NCBI RefSeq assembly: GCF_002214185.1
Contig: NZ_CP022161.1
Span: 1,797,767 to 1,861,766, forward strand
DNA length: 64,000 bases
Direction of reading: 5' to 3'
Origin: Streptomyces capitiformicae
GTDB taxonomy: Bacteria > Actinomycetota > Actinomycetes > Streptomycetales > Streptomycetaceae
Positions 2,997 through 10,976 of the stretch are shown here, one piece after another (the stretch's first letter is position 1; each line of letters begins with the position of its first letter). The notes beneath the pieces were generated by a model. The model searched no databases and had not been told where the DNA came from. It worked only from the letters and a program-made list of their open reading frames with translations. Made by a program: the position numbers and the translations under genes.

Positions 2997-3080
2997 AGTT
3001 CTGTAACGATTCTGTTCACTTAGGGAACCCTCAGGCTTCTCCTTCAATCTTCCCAGAATCCTTACTTACCATCCTGACGC
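2997..3080 (+). promoter_or_regulatory. AT-richer leader upstream of the sulfation operon
   Basis: The 84 bp between the PaaX gene and the sulfotransferase is clearly poorer in GC than its surroundings (runs such as TTCTGTAACGATTCTGTTC and CCTTACTTACCATCC). No Shine-Dalgarno sequence lies directly before ATG 3081, so translation may start from a very short leader. I take this as the likely promoter of the six-gene operon that follows, but no clear -35/-10 pair can be fixed. Confidence 0.35.
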
Positions 3081-3992
3081 ATGAGTCTCATGCGCAACTT
3101 GAACCGGGCACTCACCGCCACCACCGGCCTTCAGGTCCGCAAGGCCACCCCGGCCACCCCGGCCACCCCGGCCAAGTCGGCGAACCCCAAGGCCGCGGCG
3201 CCCAAGCCGGCCACCAAGAAGCCCACGACGGTGTACCGATGTCCGGCTCCCGAGGAACTCGCGACCGACCGACTGCTGAGGCAGCCGGTCTTCATCATGT
3301 CTCCCGTGCGCTCAGGCTCCACCCTGCTGCGGATGCTGATGAACGCGCACTCGCGGCTGCACTCTCCACATGAGCTGCACATACGCAGGCTCGAGGTCGG
3401 CTACGGCAGCAAGCTGTCCCAGAAGGCGATGAGCGCTCTCGACCTGGAGCGCGGCGACCTGGAGCATCTGCTCTGGGACCGGGTCATGCACCGCGAACTG
3501 GTCAAATCGGGCAAGGACTTCATCGTCGAGAAGACCCCGAGCAACGCCTTCGTCCACGAGCGCATCCGGGACTGCTGGCCCGACGCCCGCTTCGTCTTCC
3601 TGCTGCGCCACCCCGTCTCCATCGCCCAGTCCTGGCACGAGGGCGACCCCGACAAGCGCACCTACGACGAGGCCGCCGCCGACGCGCTGCGCTACATGAA
3701 GGCCGTCGACAAGGCCCGCAAGGGACTCACCGGGCATACCGTCCGCTACGAGGACATCACCGCCGACCCGGAGCAGGAGATGCGGCGGCTGTGCGAGTTC
3801 CTCGACCTCGACTTCGAGCCGACGATGCTCGACTACGGCAAGAAGGACGACGCCCAGGTCGTCAAGGGCCTCGGCGACTGGCGCGACAAGATCAAGACCG
3901 GTCAGGTGCAGTCCGGGCGCGCGCTGCCCACCGAGGACGACATCCCGGAGATTCTCCGGCCTATGTGCCAGGCGTGGGGCTACAGCGAGTGA
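3081..3992 (+). CDS. PAPS-dependent sulfotransferase
   Basis: A 303-residue sulfotransferase expected to move the sulfuryl group of PAPS to an acceptor. The 5'-phosphosulfate loop is visible as SPVRSGSTLLRMLMNAHS (about residue 73), the 3'-phosphate site as RFVFLLRHPVSIAQSWHEGD (about 173), and the family tail as VRYEDITADPEQEMRRLCEFL. The first 50 residues are a Lys/Ala/Pro-rich tail with ATP-ATP-ATP repeats and no signal peptide, so the enzyme is cytoplasmic. The downstream genes of the same operon make PAPS (cysC, cysD, cysN), and a glycosyltransferase sits between them, so a glycan or glycolipid is a likely acceptor. The stop codon overlaps the next GTG start. Confidence 0.88.
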   Translation: MSLMRNLNRALTATTGLQVRKATPATPATPAKSANPKAAAPKPATKKPTTVYRCPAPEELATDRLLRQPVFIMSPVRSGSTLLRMLMNAHSRLHSPHELHIRRLEVGYGSKLSQKAMSALDLERGDLEHLLWDRVMHRELVKSGKDFIVEKTPSNAFVHERIRDCWPDARFVFLLRHPVSIAQSWHEGDPDKRTYDEAAADALRYMKAVDKARKGLTGHTVRYEDITADPEQEMRRLCEFLDLDFEPTMLDYGKKDDAQVVKGLGDWRDKIKTGQVQSGRALPTEDDIPEILRPMCQAWGYSE

Positions 3993-4408
3993 AGGCGCAC
4001 GCAGAGATAGCCGAGGTGTGGCCGCGCGACGGCCGTATAAGACTCGTCGGCCGTATCCACGGGCTGCCCGCCCGTGACACCGCCGGTTCCTGGGAGTTGG
4101 TCCTCACCCGTCGCGCCCACCCCGACCGGCGGCTGCGCTACGCCGCCGACCTGAAGGACGACCGCTTCGAGAGCGAATTGCCCGTCGCCGACCTCGCGGC
4201 ACCCGACTACGCCCCCGTGGAGGAGTGGGACATCCACCTCAGCGACGGCACCGTCGAACTGCGCGCCGGAAAGCATCTCGACGACATCCGCGGCAAGAAG
4301 AAGATCTTCGTGTATCCGGAGCAGCACGTCGGGAACCTCGGGGTGCGCCCCTACTACACGATCAAGGACAACCTGTCTCTGGAGTGCCGTACGGGAGGCT
4401 CCGCATGA
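3989..4408 (+). CDS. Conserved-looking protein of unknown function in the sulfation operon
   Basis: I do not recognise a named family. The GTG at 3989 overlaps the sulfotransferase stop (GTGA), giving 139 residues beginning VKAHAEIAEVWPRDGRIRLVG. The sequence alternates short beta-like stretches (RIRLVGRIHGL, WELVLTRR, EEWDIHLSDG, KIFVYPEQ) and ends YYTIKDNLSLECR, which suggests a small all-beta domain like those found beside wall-polymer or glycan transferases. It has no signal peptide, membrane segment or cysteine pair. Its position, coupled to both the sulfotransferase and the GT4 enzyme, argues for a role in acceptor recognition or glycan handling; this is inference. Confidence 0.75.
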   Translation: MKAHAEIAEVWPRDGRIRLVGRIHGLPARDTAGSWELVLTRRAHPDRRLRYAADLKDDRFESELPVADLAAPDYAPVEEWDIHLSDGTVELRAGKHLDDIRGKKKIFVYPEQHVGNLGVRPYYTIKDNLSLECRTGGSA

Positions 4409-5646
4409 CCGACCGTCGTTCCCTGCCCCACGTGCGCTACCTGCTGCTGCACGCCTACGGCCGCGGCGGCACCATCCGCACGGTGATGAACCAGGCCAAC
4501 TCCCTGGTGGCGGCGGGCTGGAGCGTGGAGATCGTCAGCGCGGTGCGCCGCCGCGACGACATCCAGTTCCCGCTCGACGACCGCGTTCAGGTCTCCACGG
4601 TCGTGGACCTGCGCGAGGGCGCCCACACCCCGCCGTCCGGGCTCGTCGCCCGCTGGCGCGAACGCAAGCGCGACGAGCTGCTTCAGGCGCCCGCGCAGCA
4701 CATCCCGAAGGGCGAGTTCGCCTACCGCCACTTCAACCGGTACGTCGAGGACCGGCTCATCGCGTATCTGCGGTCGTTGACCAGCGGCATCCTGGTGACG
4801 ACCCGCCCGGCGCTGAACTTCCTCTCCGCCGAGCACGCCACCAACGGCGTGATCCGCGTCGCCCAGGAGCACATGAACCTCGGCACGCACCGCAAGGACG
4901 TACAGAAGCGCATCCAGGAGACCTACCCGCGCTTCGCCGCCGTCGCCGTGCTCACCGAGCGCGACCGCGAGGAGTACGCCGAACTGCTCCCCGGGACCAA
5001 GGTCATCCGCATCCCGAACGCCGTGCACTCCCTCGACCAGGTCGCCGCCGACCCCGCGTCGAAGATCGCGGTGGCCGCCGGGCGGCTCTTCCCGCAGAAG
5101 GGCTTCGACATGCTGATCCCGGCCTGGGCGAAGCTCGTCGAGTCGTTCCCCGAATGGCAGTTGAGGATTTACGGCAGCGGCGAGAAGAAGTCGGAACTTC
5201 GTAACCTGATCGACGTCCACCATCTCTACAATCACGTTCTCCTCATGGGGCACACCGACCGCCTGGACGACGAACTCGCCAAGGCGTCCTTCTACGTGCT
5301 CAGCTCACGGTTCGAGGGACTTCCGATGGTGATGATCGAGGCGATGAGCCACTCCCTTCCGGTGGTGAGCTTCGACTGCCCGACCGGTCCGGCGGACGTG
5401 CTGACGCACGGCGTCGACGGTCTGCTGGTGGCACCGGAGGACCCCGACGCGCTGGCCGACGCCATGGCGAAGCTCATGGCCGACGAGGCGATGCGCGCCG
5501 ACATGGGGGTGGCCGCGGTGCTCACGGCCGCCTCATACGGCCCGGACGCCGTTCACCCGCGCTGGGAAGCCCTGTTCACCGACCTCCACGAGCAACGGCA
5601 CGGCAGCGCCGCCGTGGCCGGCTCCGCGAAAGGAACACACGCATGA
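4405..5646 (+). CDS. Glycosyltransferase, family 4 (GT-B fold)
   Basis: A 413-residue retaining GT-B glycosyltransferase. The N-terminal acceptor domain starts HVRYLLLHAYGRGGTIRTV; the C-terminal GT1 domain carries KIAVAAGRLFPQKGFDMLI, an EKKSELRNLI linker and the nucleotide-sugar motif SRFEGLPMVMIEAMSHSLP followed by PTGPADVL. ATG 4405 overlaps the preceding stop (ATGA) and its own stop overlaps cysC in the same way, so it belongs to the sulfation operon. It probably builds or extends the glycan that the operon's sulfotransferase decorates. Some resemblance to teichoic-acid glucosyltransferases is visible in the N-terminus, but donor and acceptor cannot be read from sequence. Confidence 0.88.
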   Translation: MTDRRSLPHVRYLLLHAYGRGGTIRTVMNQANSLVAAGWSVEIVSAVRRRDDIQFPLDDRVQVSTVVDLREGAHTPPSGLVARWRERKRDELLQAPAQHIPKGEFAYRHFNRYVEDRLIAYLRSLTSGILVTTRPALNFLSAEHATNGVIRVAQEHMNLGTHRKDVQKRIQETYPRFAAVAVLTERDREEYAELLPGTKVIRIPNAVHSLDQVAADPASKIAVAAGRLFPQKGFDMLIPAWAKLVESFPEWQLRIYGSGEKKSELRNLIDVHHLYNHVLLMGHTDRLDDELAKASFYVLSSRFEGLPMVMIEAMSHSLPVVSFDCPTGPADVLTHGVDGLLVAPEDPDALADAMAKLMADEAMRADMGVAAVLTAASYGPDAVHPRWEALFTDLHEQRHGSAAVAGSAKGTHA

Positions 5647-6197
5647 CCACCTCGCCCAAGGGCCAAGGAGCCACCGTATGGCTCACCGGCCTGCCGAGCG
5701 CGGGCAAGACGACGATCGCCCGCATCCTCGCCGGCCGGCTGCGGTCCGAGGGACACCGTGTGGAGGTCCTCGACGGTGACGAGATCCGCCGCTTCCTCTC
5801 CGCGGGCCTCGGCTTCTCCCGCGAGGACCGCAACACCAACGTGCAGCGCATCGGCCTGGTCGCCGAGGTCCTCGCCCGCAACGGCGTCCTCGCCGTCGTT
5901 CCCGTCATCGCCCCCTACGCCGACAGCCGCGAGGCCGTCCGCAAGCGGCACGACGCGAGCGGCACACCGTACGTCGAGGTCCATGTCGCCACCCCGGTCG
6001 ACGTGTGCAGCGAGCGCGACGTCAAGGGCCTGTACGCCCGTCAGGCCGCCGGCCAGCTCAAGGGCCTGACCGGTGTCGACGACCCGTACGAGCCGCCGGC
6101 CGACCCGGCGCTGGTCCTCGCCACGCAGGACCAGACCCCCGAGGAGTCGGCGGCGTCCGTGTACGCCCTGCTGGCGGAACGGGGTCTGCTCGTATGA
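5643..6197 (+). CDS. cysC: Adenylylsulfate kinase (APS kinase)
   Basis: The 184-residue protein phosphorylates APS at the 3' position to give PAPS. The P-loop GLPSAGKTTIAR is at residues 15-26, followed by the APS-binding stretch VLDGDEIRRFLSAGLGFSREDRNTNVQRIG and the family segment VPVIAPYADSREAVRKRH. Length is normal for a stand-alone bacterial CysC. It overlaps the glycosyltransferase upstream and cysD downstream by 4 bp. Because no APS or PAPS reductase is nearby, the PAPS made here is more likely meant for sulfotransfer than for cysteine synthesis. Confidence 0.95.
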   Translation: MTTSPKGQGATVWLTGLPSAGKTTIARILAGRLRSEGHRVEVLDGDEIRRFLSAGLGFSREDRNTNVQRIGLVAEVLARNGVLAVVPVIAPYADSREAVRKRHDASGTPYVEVHVATPVDVCSERDVKGLYARQAAGQLKGLTGVDDPYEPPADPALVLATQDQTPEESAASVYALLAERGLLV

Positions 6198-7096
6198 CCG
6201 TCCACACCCTGTCTCATCTGGACGCCCTGGAGTCCGAGGCGGTCCACATCTTCCGCGAGGTGGCGGGCGAGTTCGAGCGGCCGGTGATCCTCTTCTCCGG
6301 CGGCAAGGACTCCATCGTCATGCTGCACCTGGCGCTGAAGGCGTTCGCCCCGGCGGCGATCCCGTTCTCGCTGCTGCATGTGGACACCGGGCACAACTTC
6401 CCGGAGGTGCTGGAGTACCGCGACCGTACGGTGGCCGAGCACGGTCTGCGGCTGCATGTGGCGTCCGTGCAGGACTACATCGACCGCGGTGTGCTGCGCG
6501 AGCGGCCGGACGGCACCCGGAACCCGCTGCAGACCGTCCCGCTGACGGAGAAGATCCAGTCGGAGCGCTTCGACGCCGTCTTCGGTGGTGGCCGTCGGGA
6601 CGAGGAGAAGGCCCGCGCCAAGGAGCGGGTGTTCTCGCTGCGGGACGAGTTCTCGCAGTGGGACCCGCGCCGGCAGCGGCCCGAGCTGTGGCAGCTGTAC
6701 AACGGAAGGCACGCGCCTGGGGAGCATGTGCGTGTGTTTCCGCTGTCCAACTGGACCGAGCTGGACGTCTGGCAGTACATCGCCCGGGAGGGCATCGAGC
6801 TGCCGGAGATCTACTTCGCCCACCACCGCGAGGTGTTCATGCGGGGCGGGATGTGGCTGACCGCCGGTGAGTGGGGCGGGCCGCGCGAGAACGAGGCGGT
6901 CGAGAAGCGGCAGGTGCGGTACCGGACCGTGGGTGACATGTCCTGCACGGGCGCCGTCGACTCGGACGCTGTGACATTGGACCAGGTCATCGCCGAGATC
7001 GCCGCGTCCCGGCTCACCGAGCGGGGCGCGACCCGCGCCGACGACAAGCTGTCCGAGGCCGCGATGGAAGACCGTAAGCGCGAGGGGTACTTCTAA
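6194..7096 (+). CDS. cysD: Sulfate adenylyltransferase small subunit
   Basis: The 300-residue subunit catalyses adenylation of sulfate with ATP and forms a complex with the GTPase CysN. The PP-loop motif ILFSGGKDSIVMLHLALKAF is near residue 34, and the downstream blocks HVDTGHNFPEVLEYRD, AVFGGGRRDEEKARAKERVFS and DVWQYIAREGIELPEIYFAHHR are all characteristic, as is the C-terminal VRYRTVGDMSCTGAV. ATG 6194 overlaps the cysC stop (ATGA); cysN starts 2 bp after its stop, so the three genes are translationally coupled. Confidence 0.96.
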   Translation: MTVHTLSHLDALESEAVHIFREVAGEFERPVILFSGGKDSIVMLHLALKAFAPAAIPFSLLHVDTGHNFPEVLEYRDRTVAEHGLRLHVASVQDYIDRGVLRERPDGTRNPLQTVPLTEKIQSERFDAVFGGGRRDEEKARAKERVFSLRDEFSQWDPRRQRPELWQLYNGRHAPGEHVRVFPLSNWTELDVWQYIAREGIELPEIYFAHHREVFMRGGMWLTAGEWGGPRENEAVEKRQVRYRTVGDMSCTGAVDSDAVTLDQVIAEIAASRLTERGATRADDKLSEAAMEDRKREGYF

Positions 7097-7098
7097 GC

Positions 7099-8325
7099 AT
7101 GAGCATGACCACGATGGGCATGACCACCATCGACACGCTGCGGTTCGCCACGGCCGGGTCGGTCGACGACGGCAAGTCCACGCTCGTGGGGCGGCTGCTG
7201 CACGACTCCAAGTCGGTCCTCGCGGACCAGCTGGAGGCCGTGGAGCGGGCGTCCGCCAACCGGGGCCAGGACGCGCCCGACCTCGCGCTGCTGACCGACG
7301 GGCTGCGGGCCGAGCGGGAGCAGGGCATCACCATCGATGTGGCGTACCGCTACTTCGCGACCCCGCGCCGCCGGTTCATCCTCGCCGACACGCCCGGCCA
7401 TGTGCAGTACACCCGCAACATGGTGACAGGTGCCTCCACCGCCGAGCTGGCCATCATCCTCGTCGACGCCCGCAACGGTGTCGTCGAGCAGACGCTGCGG
7501 CACGCGGCGGTGGCCGCGCTGCTGCGTGTGCCGCACGTGGTCCTCGCCGTCAACAAGATGGACCTCGTCGGGTACGAGGAGAAGGAGTTCCTGCGGATCG
7601 TCGAGGACTTCGGCCGGCACGCGGAGGAGTTGGGGCTGCCCGGCTTCACGCCGATTCCGGTCTCCGCGCTGGTGGGTGACAACGTCGTCGAGCGGTCCGC
7701 GCACATGGACTGGTATGACGGGCCCGCGCTGCTGGAGTACCTGGAGACCGTGCCGGTGGGGGTCGAGGCGGCGGACGCGCCGGCCCGCTTGCCCGTGCAG
7801 TATGTGATCCGGCACGGCGATGAGCGCCACTACGCGGGGCAGTTGGTGTCCGGGGCGCTGCGGGTCGGTGACCGGGTGACCGTCCATCCGTCCGGTGAGA
7901 CCTCCGAGATCGTCGGGATCGATGTGCTGGGCGAGGCGGCGGAGGTGGCGTTCGCACCGCAGTCGATCACGGTGCGGCTGGCGGATCAGCGGGATGTGGC
8001 CCGTGGGGACATGATCACGGCCGGGGCTGACGGGCCGACGCTCACCCAGGACGTGCGGGCAGCCGTCTGCCACCTCGCGGAACGGCCGTTGCGGGTCGGT
8101 GATCGCGTCCTGCTCCGGCACACCACTCGTACGGTGAAGGCGATCGTGCGTGACCTCGGCGGAGCCGGCTCCTTGGCCACGAACGATCTGGGGCGGGTTG
8201 TACTGCGTACGGCGGAGCCGTTGGCGTTGGACGACTACGCGGAGGTGCGGCGGACCGGGGCGTTCATTCTGGTGGACCCGGCGGATGGGGCGACGCTTAC
8301 GGCGGGGATGGTTGAGCTGACGTAG
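7099..8325 (+). CDS. cysN: Sulfate adenylyltransferase large (GTPase) subunit
   Basis: The 408-residue GTPase drives sulfate adenylation by CysD. The elongation-factor-type motifs are complete: G1 TAGSVDDGKSTLVGRLL, G2 region EREQGITIDVAYRYF, G3 DTPGHVQYTRNMVTGAS and G4 NKMDLVGYEE, followed by two beta-barrel domains. No APS-kinase domain is fused, consistent with a separate cysC upstream. It is the last gene of the operon; a strong hairpin follows 65 bp after the stop. Confidence 0.96.
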   Translation: MSMTTMGMTTIDTLRFATAGSVDDGKSTLVGRLLHDSKSVLADQLEAVERASANRGQDAPDLALLTDGLRAEREQGITIDVAYRYFATPRRRFILADTPGHVQYTRNMVTGASTAELAIILVDARNGVVEQTLRHAAVAALLRVPHVVLAVNKMDLVGYEEKEFLRIVEDFGRHAEELGLPGFTPIPVSALVGDNVVERSAHMDWYDGPALLEYLETVPVGVEAADAPARLPVQYVIRHGDERHYAGQLVSGALRVGDRVTVHPSGETSEIVGIDVLGEAAEVAFAPQSITVRLADQRDVARGDMITAGADGPTLTQDVRAAVCHLAERPLRVGDRVLLRHTTRTVKAIVRDLGGAGSLATNDLGRVVLRTAEPLALDDYAEVRRTGAFILVDPADGATLTAGMVELT

Positions 8326-8390
8326 CAGGTGGGGCGCCCGGTGCTGGAGCTGGGCGGGGGTGGGCGCACAACTCGGCGCTACGAGGTGCC

Positions 8391-8434
8391 GCTGCGCCCA
8401 CCCGTACCGCCCCAGCGGCACGGGTGGGCGCAGC
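8391..8434. terminator. Strong hairpin between convergent genes
   Basis: Perfect 15-bp arms, GCTGCGCCCACCCGT at 8391-8405 and its reverse complement at 8420-8434, enclose a 14-nt loop. An overlapping alternative pairing (GTGCCGCTG with CAGCGGCAC) is possible. There is no T-tract, as is usual for high-GC actinobacteria. The position between the end of cysN (plus) and the end of the monooxygenase gene (minus) fits a bidirectional terminator. Confidence 0.65.
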
Positions 8435-8466
8435 TATGTGAGCTGTGGCAGCTGGGTCCCGCTTCT

Positions 8467-8518
8467 CCAGGGGCGCGGGGAACTGCGCGATCAACCACAT
8501 CCGAGCCGCAGCCGCCAT
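8467..8518 (+). repeat. Dispersed Streptomyces-type element (GGGGCGCGGGGAACTGCGCG core)
   Basis: The core GGGGCGCGGGGAACTGCGCG followed by a degenerate ATCAACCACATCCGAGCCGCAGC tract matches an element I know to be very common between genes in Streptomyces genomes. A second copy, inverted, lies at about 10898-10945 at the start of the monooxygenase gene, so the two copies bracket that gene. Confidence 0.65.
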
Positions 8519-8546: not shown

Positions 8547-10976
8547 CTACTGGGACAGTGTCAGTCGCGGTTTCGGGGCGTCGGCGCGGCCCGTGTTGGG
8601 GCGGCGGCTGCCCGCGCGGTACGGGGCGGGCCAGGTGACGCCCGGCCCTTCGTAGCCCTGCTCGGCTGCTGCGTGGAGGGTCCAGTGGGGGTCGTAGAGG
8701 TGGGGGCGGGCCAGGGCGCAGAGGTCGGTGCGGCCGGCCAGGATCAAGGAGTTCACGTCGTCCCAGGAGGAGATGGCGCCCACGGCTATCACGGGGACGT
8801 CGGCCTCGTGGCGGATTCGGTCGGCGAACGGGGTTTGGTAGGAGCGGCCGAAAGCCGGGTGCTCGTCGGCTACCACCTGGCCGGTTGACACGTCGATCGC
8901 GTCCGCGCCGTGGGCCGCGAACGCGCGGGCGATCGCCACCGCGTCCTCGGCTGTCGTACCGCCGTCCGCCCAGTCGGTGGCGGAGATACGGACCGTCATG
9001 GGGCGTTCCTCGGGCCATACGGCCCGTATCGCGTCGAAGACTTCGAGAGGGAAGCGGAGCCGGCCGTCGAGGGAGCCGCCGTAGCGGTCGGTGCGGTGGT
9101 TGGTCAGGGGGGAGAGGAAACCGGAGAGCAAGTAGCCGTGCGCGCAGTGGAGTTCGAGAAGGTCGAAACCGCTGCGGGCGGCACGGGCGGCCGCCGAGGC
9201 GAACTGCTCGCGGATGTCGGTCAGTTGGGCGCGGGAGAGTTCGCGAGGGGTCTGACTGCCCGGCTTGTACGGGACCGGGGAGGCCGCCACCAGGGGCCAG
9301 TTGCCCTCGTCCAGGGGGTCGTCGATGCCCTCCCACATCCGCTTGGTGGAACCCTTGCGGCCGGAGTGACCCAGCTGGACACCGATCGCCGTACCCGGCG
9401 CCTGGGTGTGCGCGAACGACACGATGCGGCGCCAGGCGTCGGCCTGCCGGGAGTTCCAGAGTCCGGCGCAGCCCGGAGTGATCCGCCCCTCCGGGCTCAC
9501 GCACACCATCTCGGTCATCACCAGCCCGGCGCCGCCGAGGGCCCGGGCGCCCAGGTGGACGAGGTGGAAGTCGCCGGGGACGCCGTCGGCCGCCGAGTAC
9601 ATGTCCATCGGCGATACGACGACCCGGTTGCGCAGGGTCAGGCCGCGCAGCCGGAACGGGGTGAACATCGGGGGCGTACCGGGCGGGCAGCCGAACTCGC
9701 GCTCCACGGCGCCGGTGAAGTGCGGGTCGCGCAGGCGGAGGTTGTCGTGGGTGACGCGGCGGCTGCGGGTGAGGAGGTTGAACGCGAACTGCCGGGTGGG
9801 CTGGGAGAGATGGAGCCCGATGTTCTCGAACCACTCCAGGCTGGCCCGCGCCGCCCGCTGGGTGGAGGCGACGACGGGGCGCCTCTCCTCCTCGTACGCC
9901 GCCAACACCCGTTCCAGATCGGGCTGTTCCTCCAGACAGGCGGCCAGCGCCAGCGCGTCCTCGACGGCGAGCTTCGTGCCGGAGCCGATGGAGAAGTGCG
10001 CGGTGTGCGCGGCGTCGCCGAGCAGTACCAGATTGCCGTGCGACCAGCGTTCGTTGACGACCGTGCGGAAGGTGGTCCAGGTGCTGTTGTTGGAGCGCAG
10101 GGGGCGTCCGCCGAGCGCGTCCGCGAAGAGCTTGGCGCAGCGGTCGATCGACTCGGCGGCGTCGAGTTCCGCGAAGCCGGCGGACCGCCAGACCTCTTCG
10201 CGCATCTCGACGATGACGGTGGACGCGCCGAATTGATCATGTGGCCCGGAGGGCCTCGTTGAGGGGTGGTGGTCGGGTGACGGGCGGGCGTACGGGTAGC
10301 CGTGCAGTTGCATCACGCCGTGTTCGGTCTCGGCGATCTCGAAACGGAACGCCTCGAAGGCGAAGTCCGCGGCCAGCCAGATGTAACGGCAGCGGTGTTC
10401 CTCGACGGACGGCCGGAACACCTCCGCGTACGCCGCGCGCGTGCCGCTGTGCACGCCGTCCGCCGCGATGACCAGGTCGTATGTCTCGCAGAGCCATTCC
10501 GGGTACGGGGCCTCCGTGCGGAACCGCAGTTCCACGCCGAGTGCGTGGCAGCGTTCGTGAAGGATCTGGAGGAGTCTGCGGCGGCCCAGGGCCGCGAAGC
10601 CGTGTCCTCCGGAGGTGTGACGGGTGTTTCTGTGGACGATGTCTATGTCGTCCCAGCGGATGAAGTCGTGTTGGAGGGCCTCGTAGACGGTCGGGTCTGC
10701 GTGTTCTATGCCGCCGAGGGTTTCGTCGGAGAGGACTACTCCGAAGCCGAAGGTGTCGTCCGGGGCGTTGCGTTCCCAGACGGTGATTTCGCGGGTGGGG
10801 TCGAGGCGTTTGAGGAGGGCGGCGGCGTAGAGGCCGCCGGGGCCGCCGCCGATGATGGCGATGCGGTGGGGGTGGCTGGTCGTCGCGGGCGGCTGCGGGT
10901 TGGTAGGGGCTGGCCGCGCAGTTCCCCGCGCCCCTGAGTTTGCTGCTGGGGTTGGCTGTATCGCTGGGGTTGGCAT
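8547..10976 (-). CDS. Two-domain 2-aminobenzoyl-CoA / salicylyl-CoA monooxygenase-reductase
   Basis: An 809-residue fusion. The N-terminal half is a flavin monooxygenase with the FAD-binding IAIIGGGPGGLYAAALLKRL and the second FAD motif NLVLLGDAAHTAHFSIGSGTK. The C-terminal half (from about MFTPFRLRGLTLRNRVVVSPM) is an old-yellow-enzyme reductase with LGHSGRKGSTKRMWEG and VRISATDWADGGTTAEDAV. This architecture is that of 2-aminobenzoyl-CoA monooxygenase/reductase and of proteins annotated as salicylyl-CoA 5-hydroxylase/oxidoreductase, which hydroxylate and then reduce the ring of an aryl-CoA. The ATG at 10976 overlaps the enoyl-CoA hydratase stop (TGATG). The first 35 residues are low-complexity and derive from a dispersed repeat, so functional translation could begin further in. 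Confidence 0.88.
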   Translation of the reverse strand: MPTPAIQPTPAANSGARGTARPAPTNPQPPATTSHPHRIAIIGGGPGGLYAAALLKRLDPTREITVWERNAPDDTFGFGVVLSDETLGGIEHADPTVYEALQHDFIRWDDIDIVHRNTRHTSGGHGFAALGRRRLLQILHERCHALGVELRFRTEAPYPEWLCETYDLVIAADGVHSGTRAAYAEVFRPSVEEHRCRYIWLAADFAFEAFRFEIAETEHGVMQLHGYPYARPSPDHHPSTRPSGPHDQFGASTVIVEMREEVWRSAGFAELDAAESIDRCAKLFADALGGRPLRSNNSTWTTFRTVVNERWSHGNLVLLGDAAHTAHFSIGSGTKLAVEDALALAACLEEQPDLERVLAAYEEERRPVVASTQRAARASLEWFENIGLHLSQPTRQFAFNLLTRSRRVTHDNLRLRDPHFTGAVEREFGCPPGTPPMFTPFRLRGLTLRNRVVVSPMDMYSAADGVPGDFHLVHLGARALGGAGLVMTEMVCVSPEGRITPGCAGLWNSRQADAWRRIVSFAHTQAPGTAIGVQLGHSGRKGSTKRMWEGIDDPLDEGNWPLVAASPVPYKPGSQTPRELSRAQLTDIREQFASAAARAARSGFDLLELHCAHGYLLSGFLSPLTNHRTDRYGGSLDGRLRFPLEVFDAIRAVWPEERPMTVRISATDWADGGTTAEDAVAIARAFAAHGADAIDVSTGQVVADEHPAFGRSYQTPFADRIRHEADVPVIAVGAISSWDDVNSLILAGRTDLCALARPHLYDPHWTLHAAAEQGYEGPGVTWPAPYRAGSRRPNTGRADAPKPRLTLSQ
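10898..10945 (-). repeat. Inverted copy of the dispersed element inside the monooxygenase N-terminus
   Basis: Read on the minus strand, this stretch contains CAGGGGCGCGGGGAACTGCG followed by CGGCCAGCCCCTACCAACC, the same core as the intergenic element at 8467. Here it is translated as the Ala/Pro/Thr-rich leader of the monooxygenase (SGARGTARPAPTNPQPPATT) before the FAD-binding fold begins. Confidence 0.62.

Follow-up and report, generated by a model that had tools for sequence, protein, structure and literature searches.

In rhizobia, nodPQ constitutes an extra sulfate-activation set besides the housekeeping cysDN genes and is needed for PAPS and sulfated polysaccharides, and NodH sulfates the Nod factor, as described in PMC6192434. 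Xanthomonas oryzae similarly carries its own PAPS-making genes, raxP and raxQ, together with the sulfotransferase gene raxST, which is located with secretion genes and whose proposed target is a secreted molecule with a leader peptide (PMC4216712). Sugar decoration of wall polymers is represented by TarM and TarS, the wall teichoic acid glycosyltransferases of Staphylococcus (PMC5156392), and by the teichuronic-acid (utr) clusters of Streptomyces, which provide the receptors of umbrella toxins, encode a TarS-like UtrC and a TarM-like UtrF, and show wide diversity between species (PMC13274773). The latter report, from 2025, showed that the susceptibility of a strain to rival toxin particles is set by the variable glycans of its Streptomyces wall polymers (PMC13274773). 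Finally, the wps-1 cluster of Actinoplanes missouriensis encodes two predicted sulfotransferases and is predicted to yield a sulfated polysaccharide (PMC13390465).

Within the analysed window, a stretch of 64,000 nucleotides from Streptomyces capitiformicae, six genes on the forward strand combine elements of these systems. They encode, in order, a sulfotransferase (ST; 3081-3992, 303 aa), a small protein (3989-4408, 139 aa), a GT4 glycosyltransferase (4405-5646, 413 aa), the APS kinase CysC (5643-6197, 184 aa), and the small and GTPase subunits of ATP sulfurylase, CysD (6194-7096, 300 aa) and CysN (7099-8325, 408 aa). The first four junctions are 4-bp overlaps (GTGA or ATGA) and the fifth, between cysD and cysN, is a 2-bp gap, just as the first-pass annotation had described the place, order and coupling of the six reading frames. 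It had also noted the absence of a reductase from the operon, and indeed none of the six products matches one in the Pfam and NCBIfam models. The gene order is not a product of chance, since ST, small protein and GT4 recur in this arrangement in 30 loci from 26 of 392 Streptomyces genomes.

This three-gene core has unrelated neighbours in different lineages, and no polymerase or exporter is common to the core loci with scanned flanks. Together with the linkage of the three genes and the TarM and TarS-C1 likenesses detailed below, this makes it probable that the core acts on a polymer whose synthesis is encoded at another place in the genome. In one lineage (L082, L088), ABC-transporter genes adjoin the core, so that a local exporter may operate there. 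In the present genome, a GT4 with 35% identity to the operon GT4 adjoins an ABC-2 exporter pair, and two GT2-Glyphos_transf proteins as well as a third Glyphos_transf match lie within the same stretch of about 24 kb. Among other genomes with the core, G388 shows no Glyphos_transf match and G184 only fragments. A separate reading of the genes as part of a mobile element or an anti-phage system was dropped: PADLOC returned no match except a weak one of BrxP to CysD, and the PHROGs matches were generic (glycosyltransferase and radical-SAM profiles for GT4, a profile of unknown function for ST).

Our preferred reading, for and against which we judge the scales to be about level, is that the operon is a plug-in cassette: it would attach a sulfated sugar to a glycopolymer of the envelope whose synthesis is encoded elsewhere in the genome and which is most likely a wall teichoic or teichuronic acid. 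The first-pass annotation had envisaged a sulfated glycan or glycolipid of the envelope; the TarM-like GT4 and the TarS-C1-like small domain make an envelope glycan the likeliest product; a glycolipid is not favoured, though it may be made.

The operon GT4 scores 129.2 bits against Glycos_transf_1 (Pfam cut-off 26.4), and its EGxxMVxxE motif is conserved across 52 loci at a level of 97% or more. In a search of the PDB, TarM ranked first (8e-27), followed by chains of 7ec1, 7ec3 and 7ec7 (4e-25), which we take to be SdgB, by Gtf1 (7e-15) and by other enzymes from 1e-11 onwards. Among solved structures, the catalytic domain is thus closest to TarM; the huge size of the GT4 family weighs against the preferred reading. 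The protein is shorter than the TarM and Gtf1 chains (413 aa versus 492-511 aa), and a scan of its longer ORF reading gave no Pfam match to DUF1975, the N-terminal trimerisation domain. TarS has a GT2 catalytic domain, so the operon enzyme, being a GT4, is not of the TarS type in this respect. The neighbours of a related GT4 in genome G721 (46% identity), in support of the preferred reading, include CDP-alcohol phosphotransferases and a pair of ABC genes.

The small protein links ST and GT4, because its domain is found fused to an ST in some loci and fused to or beside a GT4 in others. ST and the small protein form a single ORF in 10 of the 30 core loci; elsewhere, the domain sits at the C-terminus of a 705-aa GT4 of this genome, at the N-terminus of a GT4 of G721 and, in four loci, in a separate protein adjoining a GT4. 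It shows a weak but recurrent resemblance to domain C1 of TarS, a domain of the carbohydrate-binding/oligomerisation type. Pfam TarS_C1 matches 27 of 65 small-domain members, themselves related to each other, at E ≤ 1 (best 0.00029, below the curated thresholds); the small protein of the window itself has no Pfam match. When 177,635 PDB sequences were searched with the small domain, the top two were TarS entries, 5u02 (E 0.012) and 5tz8 (E 0.023), both aligned within C1. TarS was missed, however, by a PDB search with a narrower profile. A TarS_C1 search of the present genome gave no match and is uninformative, as control genomes gave none either.

The same comparisons bear on the alternative that the sulfated O-glycan made by GT4 and ST is carried by a protein, secreted or at the surface, and not by teichoic acid, in the manner of SdgB and Gtf1, with the small protein serving as a protein-acceptor or chaperone module. 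Two results speak for such a role: in NCBIfam the GT4 matches SdgA (5e-29) and SdgB (2.5e-28) best, although neither comes near the cut-off, and in the PDB the 7ec chains and Gtf1 are next after TarM. Against it, the small domain looks like TarS C1, part of a teichoic-acid enzyme. We therefore regard protein glycosylation as rather unlikely.

ST, identified by Pfam and NCBIfam profiles and a PDB search, reaches 96.7 bits for Sulfotransfer_3 (Pfam cut-off 27). Its motifs VRSGxTLLR and LLRHPxxxAxSW, presumably the 5' and 3' phosphate-binding motifs, are conserved at a level of 97% or more across 49 loci, which include some species twice. By domain and phosphate motifs, ST is presumably a PAPS-dependent sulfotransferase whose activity and acceptor are predicted. 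Against the NoeE equivalog NF052394 of NCBIfam it scores 34.9 bits (cut-off 500). One locus, L216, has kept ST alone. No membrane-span-like segment was found in ST, the small protein or the GT4.

The nearest solved structure to ST is CurM (5e-15), followed by a chain annotated as polyketide synthase (2e-11), which lends some support to the idea that the sulfated product is a small metabolite or a glycolipid, with no involvement of an envelope polymer. Mycobacterial sulfolipid and sulfated natural products exemplify such molecules, and Sulfotransfer_3 enzymes act on many substrates, a breadth that also counts for this alternative. It is nevertheless unlikely: the 20 flanking proteins scanned at representative loci contain no PKS, NRPS or lipid-synthesis domain, and the GT4 groups with enzymes that act on macromolecules.

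The remaining three genes are predicted to form a bacterial PAPS-forming set, with all products above curated cut-offs: CysD reaches 454.2 bits for TIGR02039 (cut-off 396.6), CysN 487.1 bits for TIGR02034 (cut-off 336.1), both in NCBIfam, and CysC 187.8 bits for Pfam APS_kinase (cut-off 21.1) and 187.3 bits for TIGR00455 (cut-off 138.7). The first-pass annotation had held that a sole cysCDN set in the genome, combined with mutants that are sulfate auxotrophs and unchanged in sulfated polymers, would point to ordinary assimilation, and had asked about a cysH-linked set elsewhere. Such a set, cysH-cysC-cysD-cysN, is present at G000:C1:1453786-1457127, so the operon is not the only one in this genome; its CysC, CysD and CysN are 78%, 94% and 71% identical to the housekeeping copies.

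Whether the operon set serves the cassette or activates sulfate for assimilation, as an ordinary or a spare set with ST and GT4 as loose neighbours, is addressed by its distribution. For the latter speak the 19 loci in which cysCDN occurs without the core at the same (PaaX) site, behind a similar promoter region, and three in which it has decayed; the four related genomes (G047, G050, G105, G184) where no cysCDN was found outside the operon and cysH lies apart from it; and the likeness of cysD in the operon and housekeeping copies. On the other side stand the complete cysHCDN set of this genome, the 4-bp overlap that ties cysC to the GT4 gene, a locus in G335 where a related ST directly precedes another cysCDN, and the phylogenies. 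When loci are labelled 'beside the core', this label must change at least twice along well-supported branches of the CysN tree and at least three times along those of the CysC tree, gains and losses counting alike; since both trees thus need more than one change, the cys genes seem to have been recruited to the core repeatedly. We consider assimilation alone quite improbable as an explanation. Conversely, the core also occurs without cysDN, lacks any cys gene in 7 of the 30 loci, and is present in G120, where CysD/CysH, APS kinase and CysN are not detectable in the genome. Given cysCDN without the core, the core without cys genes, and the sole cysCDN sets of four genomes, 'dedicated' is too strong a word for the PAPS supply. 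What stands of the earlier proposal of a dedicated sulfation operon is the single conserved module of ST and polymer-type GT4; the strict dedication of cysCDN does not.

At the PaaX site, alignment of the core loci revealed two conserved regions upstream of ST. The first, CTNAGGGAACSCTNAG (3019-3034, forward strand), consists of two CTNAGG-like units 11 bp apart and is a possible activator site. The exact pattern CTNAGGNAACNCTNAG precedes cysC in 4 of 14 core-less loci scanned, with variants in other cysC-bearing ones. A regulon marked by this element was not retained, as it is not enriched genome-wide (18 matches with at most one mismatch versus 17 for the reversed control). The second region (3051-3069, forward strand), just upstream of the ST start, is a predicted promoter with a -10-like CAGAAT at 3054-3059. 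Similar regions lie upstream of cysC in the cysCDN-only loci and of the lone ST in L216; the pattern occurs only once in the window and is absent from the housekeeping cys loci and two GT4 paralogue loci searched. In the CysC and CysN tree, the cysCDN-only loci nest inside the six-gene loci, with several forks open, which favours a six-gene ancestor at this site that later lost the core. Because the leader that precedes cysC is similar in both groups of cysCDN-only loci, there may instead have been a single loss of the core, or a cysCDN-only ancestor. The operon is flanked on one side by PaaX and a benzoate-CoA-ligase-like gene and on the other by a gene for a fused FAD/FMN oxidoreductase, but membership in a surrounding aromatic (anthranilate-type) degradation cluster is extremely improbable and was rejected, because eight sampled genomes (L181, L188-L191, L194, L195, L215) have these flanks joined and none of the six genes there, and the core elsewhere adjoins quite different genes.

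For a cassette that decorates an envelope polymer, the following route can be proposed. CysD-CysN would form APS and CysC would convert it to PAPS, as their families indicate; this local set would boost PAPS without serving the cassette exclusively. In the cytosol, the TarM-like GT4 would place a sugar on the polymer before export, and ST would use PAPS to sulfate a hydroxyl group on the added sugar or on the polymer itself. The small protein, whose fusions put it in one chain with its partners, may hold the acceptor polymer, tether ST to GT4, or both. A housekeeping TagGH-like exporter would then deliver the modified polymer to the wall. More broadly, and more tentatively, the wall teichoic or teichuronic acid of some Streptomyces might be sulfated, through a lineage-sorted or mobile cassette of TarM-like GT4, free-standing C1-like adaptor and ST that adds a sulfated sugar to the hypervariable polymers serving as receptors of umbrella toxins and probably of phages, with PAPS genes recruited repeatedly.

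If correct, a three-protein module that sulfates a wall polymer would bring a new kind of charge and antigenic variation to the cell surface in a genus noted for its antibiotics, and the sulfated sugar could alter what phages and rival bacteria recognise on the cell surface. The natural fusions of ST and small protein offer a direct handle, as they join a sulfotransferase and a polymer-binding-type domain in one polypeptide; the acceptor can therefore be sought by binding assay. The literature searched yielded no account of wall teichoic acid that is sulfated, nor of a surface polymer decorated with sulfated sugars in Streptomyces.

Compared with the known systems, the operon is like nodPQ/nodH in being a second sulfate-activation set that adjoins a sulfotransferase, with the housekeeping set elsewhere, but the glycan and sulfotransferase differ, and PMC6192434, as far as consulted, describes no TarS-C1-like small protein or TarM-like GT4. 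Nor is the set always found with a sulfotransferase, as a dedicated supply of the nodPQ kind would be, given 7 of 30 cores without cys genes and 19 cysCDN loci without the core. With the rax system it shares its own PAPS-making genes and a sulfotransferase; no glycosyltransferase is described with raxST in the relevant parts of PMC4216712. The wps-1 locus is likewise an actinomycete cluster with predicted sulfotransferases, but it is a Wzx/Wzy exopolysaccharide cluster, the main text of PMC13390465 contains the terms cysC, cysN and PAPS zero times, and the paper, as far as consulted, describes no C1-like protein. The utr clusters have in common with the operon that the TarS-like UtrC and TarM-like UtrF act on Streptomyces wall polymers (PMC13274773), as the operon enzymes may do. 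They differ in making both sugars and polymer, whereas none of the six products of 3081-8325 is a sugar-precursor enzyme of the utr type (aminotransferase, dehydrogenase, epimerase), and 'sulfat' and 'sulfotransferase' occur zero times in the main text of PMC13274773. The likeness to TarM and TarS lies in the GT4, which is closest to TarM, and in the small protein, which resembles TarS C1; what sets the operon apart is a GT4 without a DUF1975 match, a C1-like domain that is separate or fused to the sulfotransferase, and the addition of the sulfotransferase itself.

The operon lies in the window (G000:C1:1797767-1861766, G000 being the genome of Streptomyces capitiformicae), which is part of a complete 10.99-Mb chromosome. 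It encodes, in order and on the forward strand, a Sulfotransfer_3 sulfotransferase (ST; 3081-3992), a small 139-residue protein without a Pfam match (3989-4408), a GT4 glycosyltransferase (4405-5646), an APS kinase (CysC; 5643-6197), CysD (6194-7096) and CysN (7099-8325); five of the six products score above curated cut-offs, the small protein being the exception. Reading frames, gene order, 4-bp overlaps and the 2-bp gap ahead of cysN all agree with the first-pass annotation. Among named relatives, S. tailanensis came out closest, with 94-99% identity across the operon proteins. ST, small protein and GT4 look cytosolic, because 19-residue Kyte-Doolittle windows revealed no strongly hydrophobic segment in any of them (largest means 0.90, 0.17 and 1.17, respectively). 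According to domain matches, the operon is flanked by a CoA-ligase gene and PaaX (2118-2996) on one side and by a fused FAD/FMN oxidoreductase ending at 8547 on the other. The oxidoreductase fusion is of a type that leads us to regard these surroundings as a putative anthranilate-type degradation cluster.

Of 392 Streptomyces genomes, 259 contained a match to a small-protein profile, and strong matches (E < 1e-30) occurred at 33 places in 29 genomes. All 33 were inspected (the window and 32 further stretches, some ending at contig ends). At 30 loci in 26 genomes, an ST relative is encoded directly upstream of the small protein or in the same ORF, and a GT4 directly downstream; we refer to this trio as the core. 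L074 shows the ST match in two pieces only, and L093-L095 (in genomes G263, G086 and G073) are small protein-GT4 pairs at other sites that lack a core-type ST. The small domain is rare outside Streptomyces: a search of the order matched one of ten genera (207/353 genomes), and one of the phylum two of 236 (7/396 genomes). Among the 30 core loci, 14 carry a full cysCDN set, five reach a contig end inside the cys genes, four have partial sets (cysC at L075 and L076, cysC and cysD at L087, cysD and cysN at L090) and seven have none. L075 (G248) and L076 (G108) retain cysC with the core, cysD and cysN being gone, and L011 retains cysD with cysN reduced to about 50 residues. Four genomes (G047, G050, G105 and G184) contain two core loci each, one with cysCDN and one without. 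The ST-GT4 cassette is real and conserved, with an associated PAPS supply.

Compared with solved structures, the GT4 is most similar to TarM (8e-27), followed by chains 7ec1/7ec3/7ec7 (4e-25), Gtf1 (7e-15) and other enzymes from 1e-11 onward. The entry name of the 7ec chains is just "glycosyl transferase, group 1"; we presume them to be SdgB. The best NCBIfam matches of the GT4 are SdgA and SdgB, both far under their cut-offs. The nearest solved structure to the ST is CurM (5e-15), and its score against the NoeE profile is far under the cut-off. For the small protein, the Pfam family TarS_C1 was hit by 27 of 65 relatives with an E limit of 1 (best 0.00029), and every other family by two at most; with that same limit, TarS_C1 was also hit by 8 of 25 sequences in a wider alignment of the domain. 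Its profile retrieved TarS structures 5u02 (E 0.012) and 5tz8 (E 0.023) as the top two PDB entries, aligned to TarS residues 383-478, inside domain C1 (353-495); TarS was absent from the PDB matches of a narrower profile (A1) built earlier. These single matches are weak, and it is the agreement of Pfam and PDB that suggests a likeness to TarS C1. Both structures and the C1 domain are described in the TarS study (PMC5156392), according to which C1 and C2 together make up a carbohydrate-binding-type trimerisation domain; its authors think a polymer-binding role likely.

The small domain is physically joined to either enzyme. Ten core loci out of 30 (L077, L078, L080, L081, L083, L085, L086, L090, L091 and L092) encode ST and small protein as a single fused ORF of 452-494 residues. 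At L097, an own-genome paralogue, the domain forms the C-terminus of a 705-residue GT4, in G721, a genome from another family, it lies N-terminal to the GT4 domain in one protein, and at L098, L099, L101 and L102 it occurs in a separate protein adjoining a GT4. By domain-fusion logic, ST, small protein and GT4 would therefore act on one common substrate. L097 and L098, both in the own genome, encode two GT4 paralogues with fused or coupled TarS-C1-like domains, one of them between ABC exporter genes; they are probably other surface-glycan enzymes.

The first-pass annotation had proposed a dedicated sulfation operon with its own PAPS supply, and had asked whether a cysH-linked cysCDN exists elsewhere. 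Such a set, cysH-cysC-cysD-cysN, is present at 1453786-1457127 of the own genome, so the operon cysCDN is a second one here; its proteins are 78% (CysC), 94% (CysD) and 71% (CysN) identical to their housekeeping counterparts. In trees of 33 rows each, the label "beside the core" changes at least twice for CysN and at least three times for CysC on well-supported branches, which we read as probable separate recruitments of PAPS genes, although any single change may reflect either gain or loss. In G335, a different cysCDN is immediately preceded by a related ST (50%). In G047, G050 (an 82% complete assembly), G105 and G184, the operon cysCDN would have to serve assimilation as well, because no APS kinase, CysN or full-length CysD was found outside the operon, cysH lying elsewhere. 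In addition to these genomes, 20 of the 29 CysN matches with at least 82% identity in the 392 genomes come from genomes without the core. The PAPS genes have therefore been associated with the core more than once, yet are not strictly dedicated to it, since either can persist alone. A further cysC-cysD-cysN copy was noted at G248:C13:122000-134000 (L167), in a genome that already has a housekeeping set and a core with cysC.

The operon and housekeeping cysD genes (window 6194-7096 and G000:C1:1455047-1455718 in the own genome) are 89.0-97.3% identical in DNA within each of nine clade genomes, against a between-genome mean of 87.1% (n=72). For cysC and cysN, identity within genomes (76-79%) hardly exceeds the between-genome means (77.4 and 76.3%), if at all. 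Twelve genomes have both cysD copies, and in seven of them (G014, G059, G109, G128, G145, G312 and G376) the two pair as sisters, with strong support at five of the seven forks, while within the clade operon cysN and operon cysC are monophyletic. The simplest reading would be repeated gene conversion of cysD alone, with the neighbouring cysC and cysN diverging. Several draft contigs end inside the operon cysD (L010, L013, L014, L064, L071 and L072).

Across species, the site after PaaX (about 3000-8500 in the window) may lack all of the six genes, carry the complete operon, or retain just cysCDN, just cysC or just ST. Core-less loci, a non-random set, were picked by similarity to PaaX (15 + 2), operon-type CysN (17) or an extra CysD (1). 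Eight have none of the six genes (L181, L188-L191, L194, L195, L215), 19 have cysCDN alone at near full length by tblastn (L182, L184, L187, L193, L197-L211), three have decayed cys genes (L183, L185, L186) and one has ST alone (L216); L192 and L212-L214 are elsewhere or cut. The cysCDN-only sets directly follow PaaX in 19/19, with both outer flanking genes also present in 13. A similar promoter region precedes ST, cysC where the core is absent, or the lone ST; a scan of 14 core-less loci found the exact upstream element in four, and variants in other cysC-bearing loci. The joined CysC+CysN tree favours a six-gene ancestor that may later have lost the core, because cysCDN-only rows (20, including truncated L183) nest inside six-gene rows (12), with forks partly open.

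The genes adjoining the core differ in other lineages: Spo0M and S4-domain genes in some, a thioesterase with a molybdopterin oxidoreductase or a subtilase with a GH6 glycoside hydrolase in others. A Pfam scan of representative conserved flanking genes (L090, L091 and others left out) found no polymerase or exporter common to the core lineages, and the acceptor would in general be made elsewhere in the genome. A local exporter is possible in one lineage (L020, L021, L023, L082 and L088), because ABC-transporter genes lie beside the core there. The ABC-2 membrane gene was assigned by clustering, and Pfam was run on L082 and L088; at L088 the transporter adjoins GT4 but is encoded on the other strand. 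One L088 ABC-transporter gene is fused to a peptidase-like domain, and the lineage also has a Spo0M-like gene beside the core.

Within about 24 kb, the own genome encodes two GT2 + Glyphos_transf proteins, a third Glyphos_transf match and an ABC-2 exporter pair whose GT4 is 35% identical to the operon GT4 over 252 residues. The G721 GT4 (46% identical) belongs to a cluster (L100, contig C61) with two CDP-alcohol phosphotransferases, DUF5941, a nucleotidyltransferase, an iron alcohol dehydrogenase (Fe-ADH), a GT2 and a pair of ABC genes, the membrane component of which stays under its cut-off; it looks like a wall-polymer cluster. The most likely acceptor would be wall teichoic or teichuronic acid, rival products being a protein O-glycan or a glycolipid, the latter already allowed for by the first-pass annotation beside an envelope glycan. 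Teichoic acid as sole acceptor appears disfavoured, because G388 has no Glyphos_transf match and G184 fragments only (12 of 13 core genomes tested have a match).

The families, order, fusions, repeated association and intact motifs of the cassette are demonstrated; from these sequences, we infer sulfation. In the proposed mechanism for a teichoic or teichuronic acid, the ST would consume PAPS, the GT4 would glycosylate the polymer in the cytosol, the small domain would bind the polymer or tether the enzymes, and a housekeeping wall-polymer exporter would carry the product out. G120 (core locus L082) would count against this, as CysH, CysD, CysC and CysN were all undetected in its 950 contigs, possibly reflecting an assembly gap.

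Among the matches listed from a mostly open-licence literature (judged by title, abstract start and term counts), we found neither a paper on a Streptomyces ST-GT-cysCDN operon nor one on sulfated teichoic acid, and no description of the cassette. Variable wall glycans act as toxin receptors in a system with TarS-like UtrC and TarM-like UtrF, and the main text never mentions sulfation (PMC13274773). Points of reference are Actinoplanes wps-1 (PMC13390465), nodPQ (PMC6192434), rax (PMC4216712) and TarS (PMC5156392). The cassette combines known kinds of system, resembling nodPQ/nodH in its sulfation supply and TarM/TarS in polymer glycosylation.
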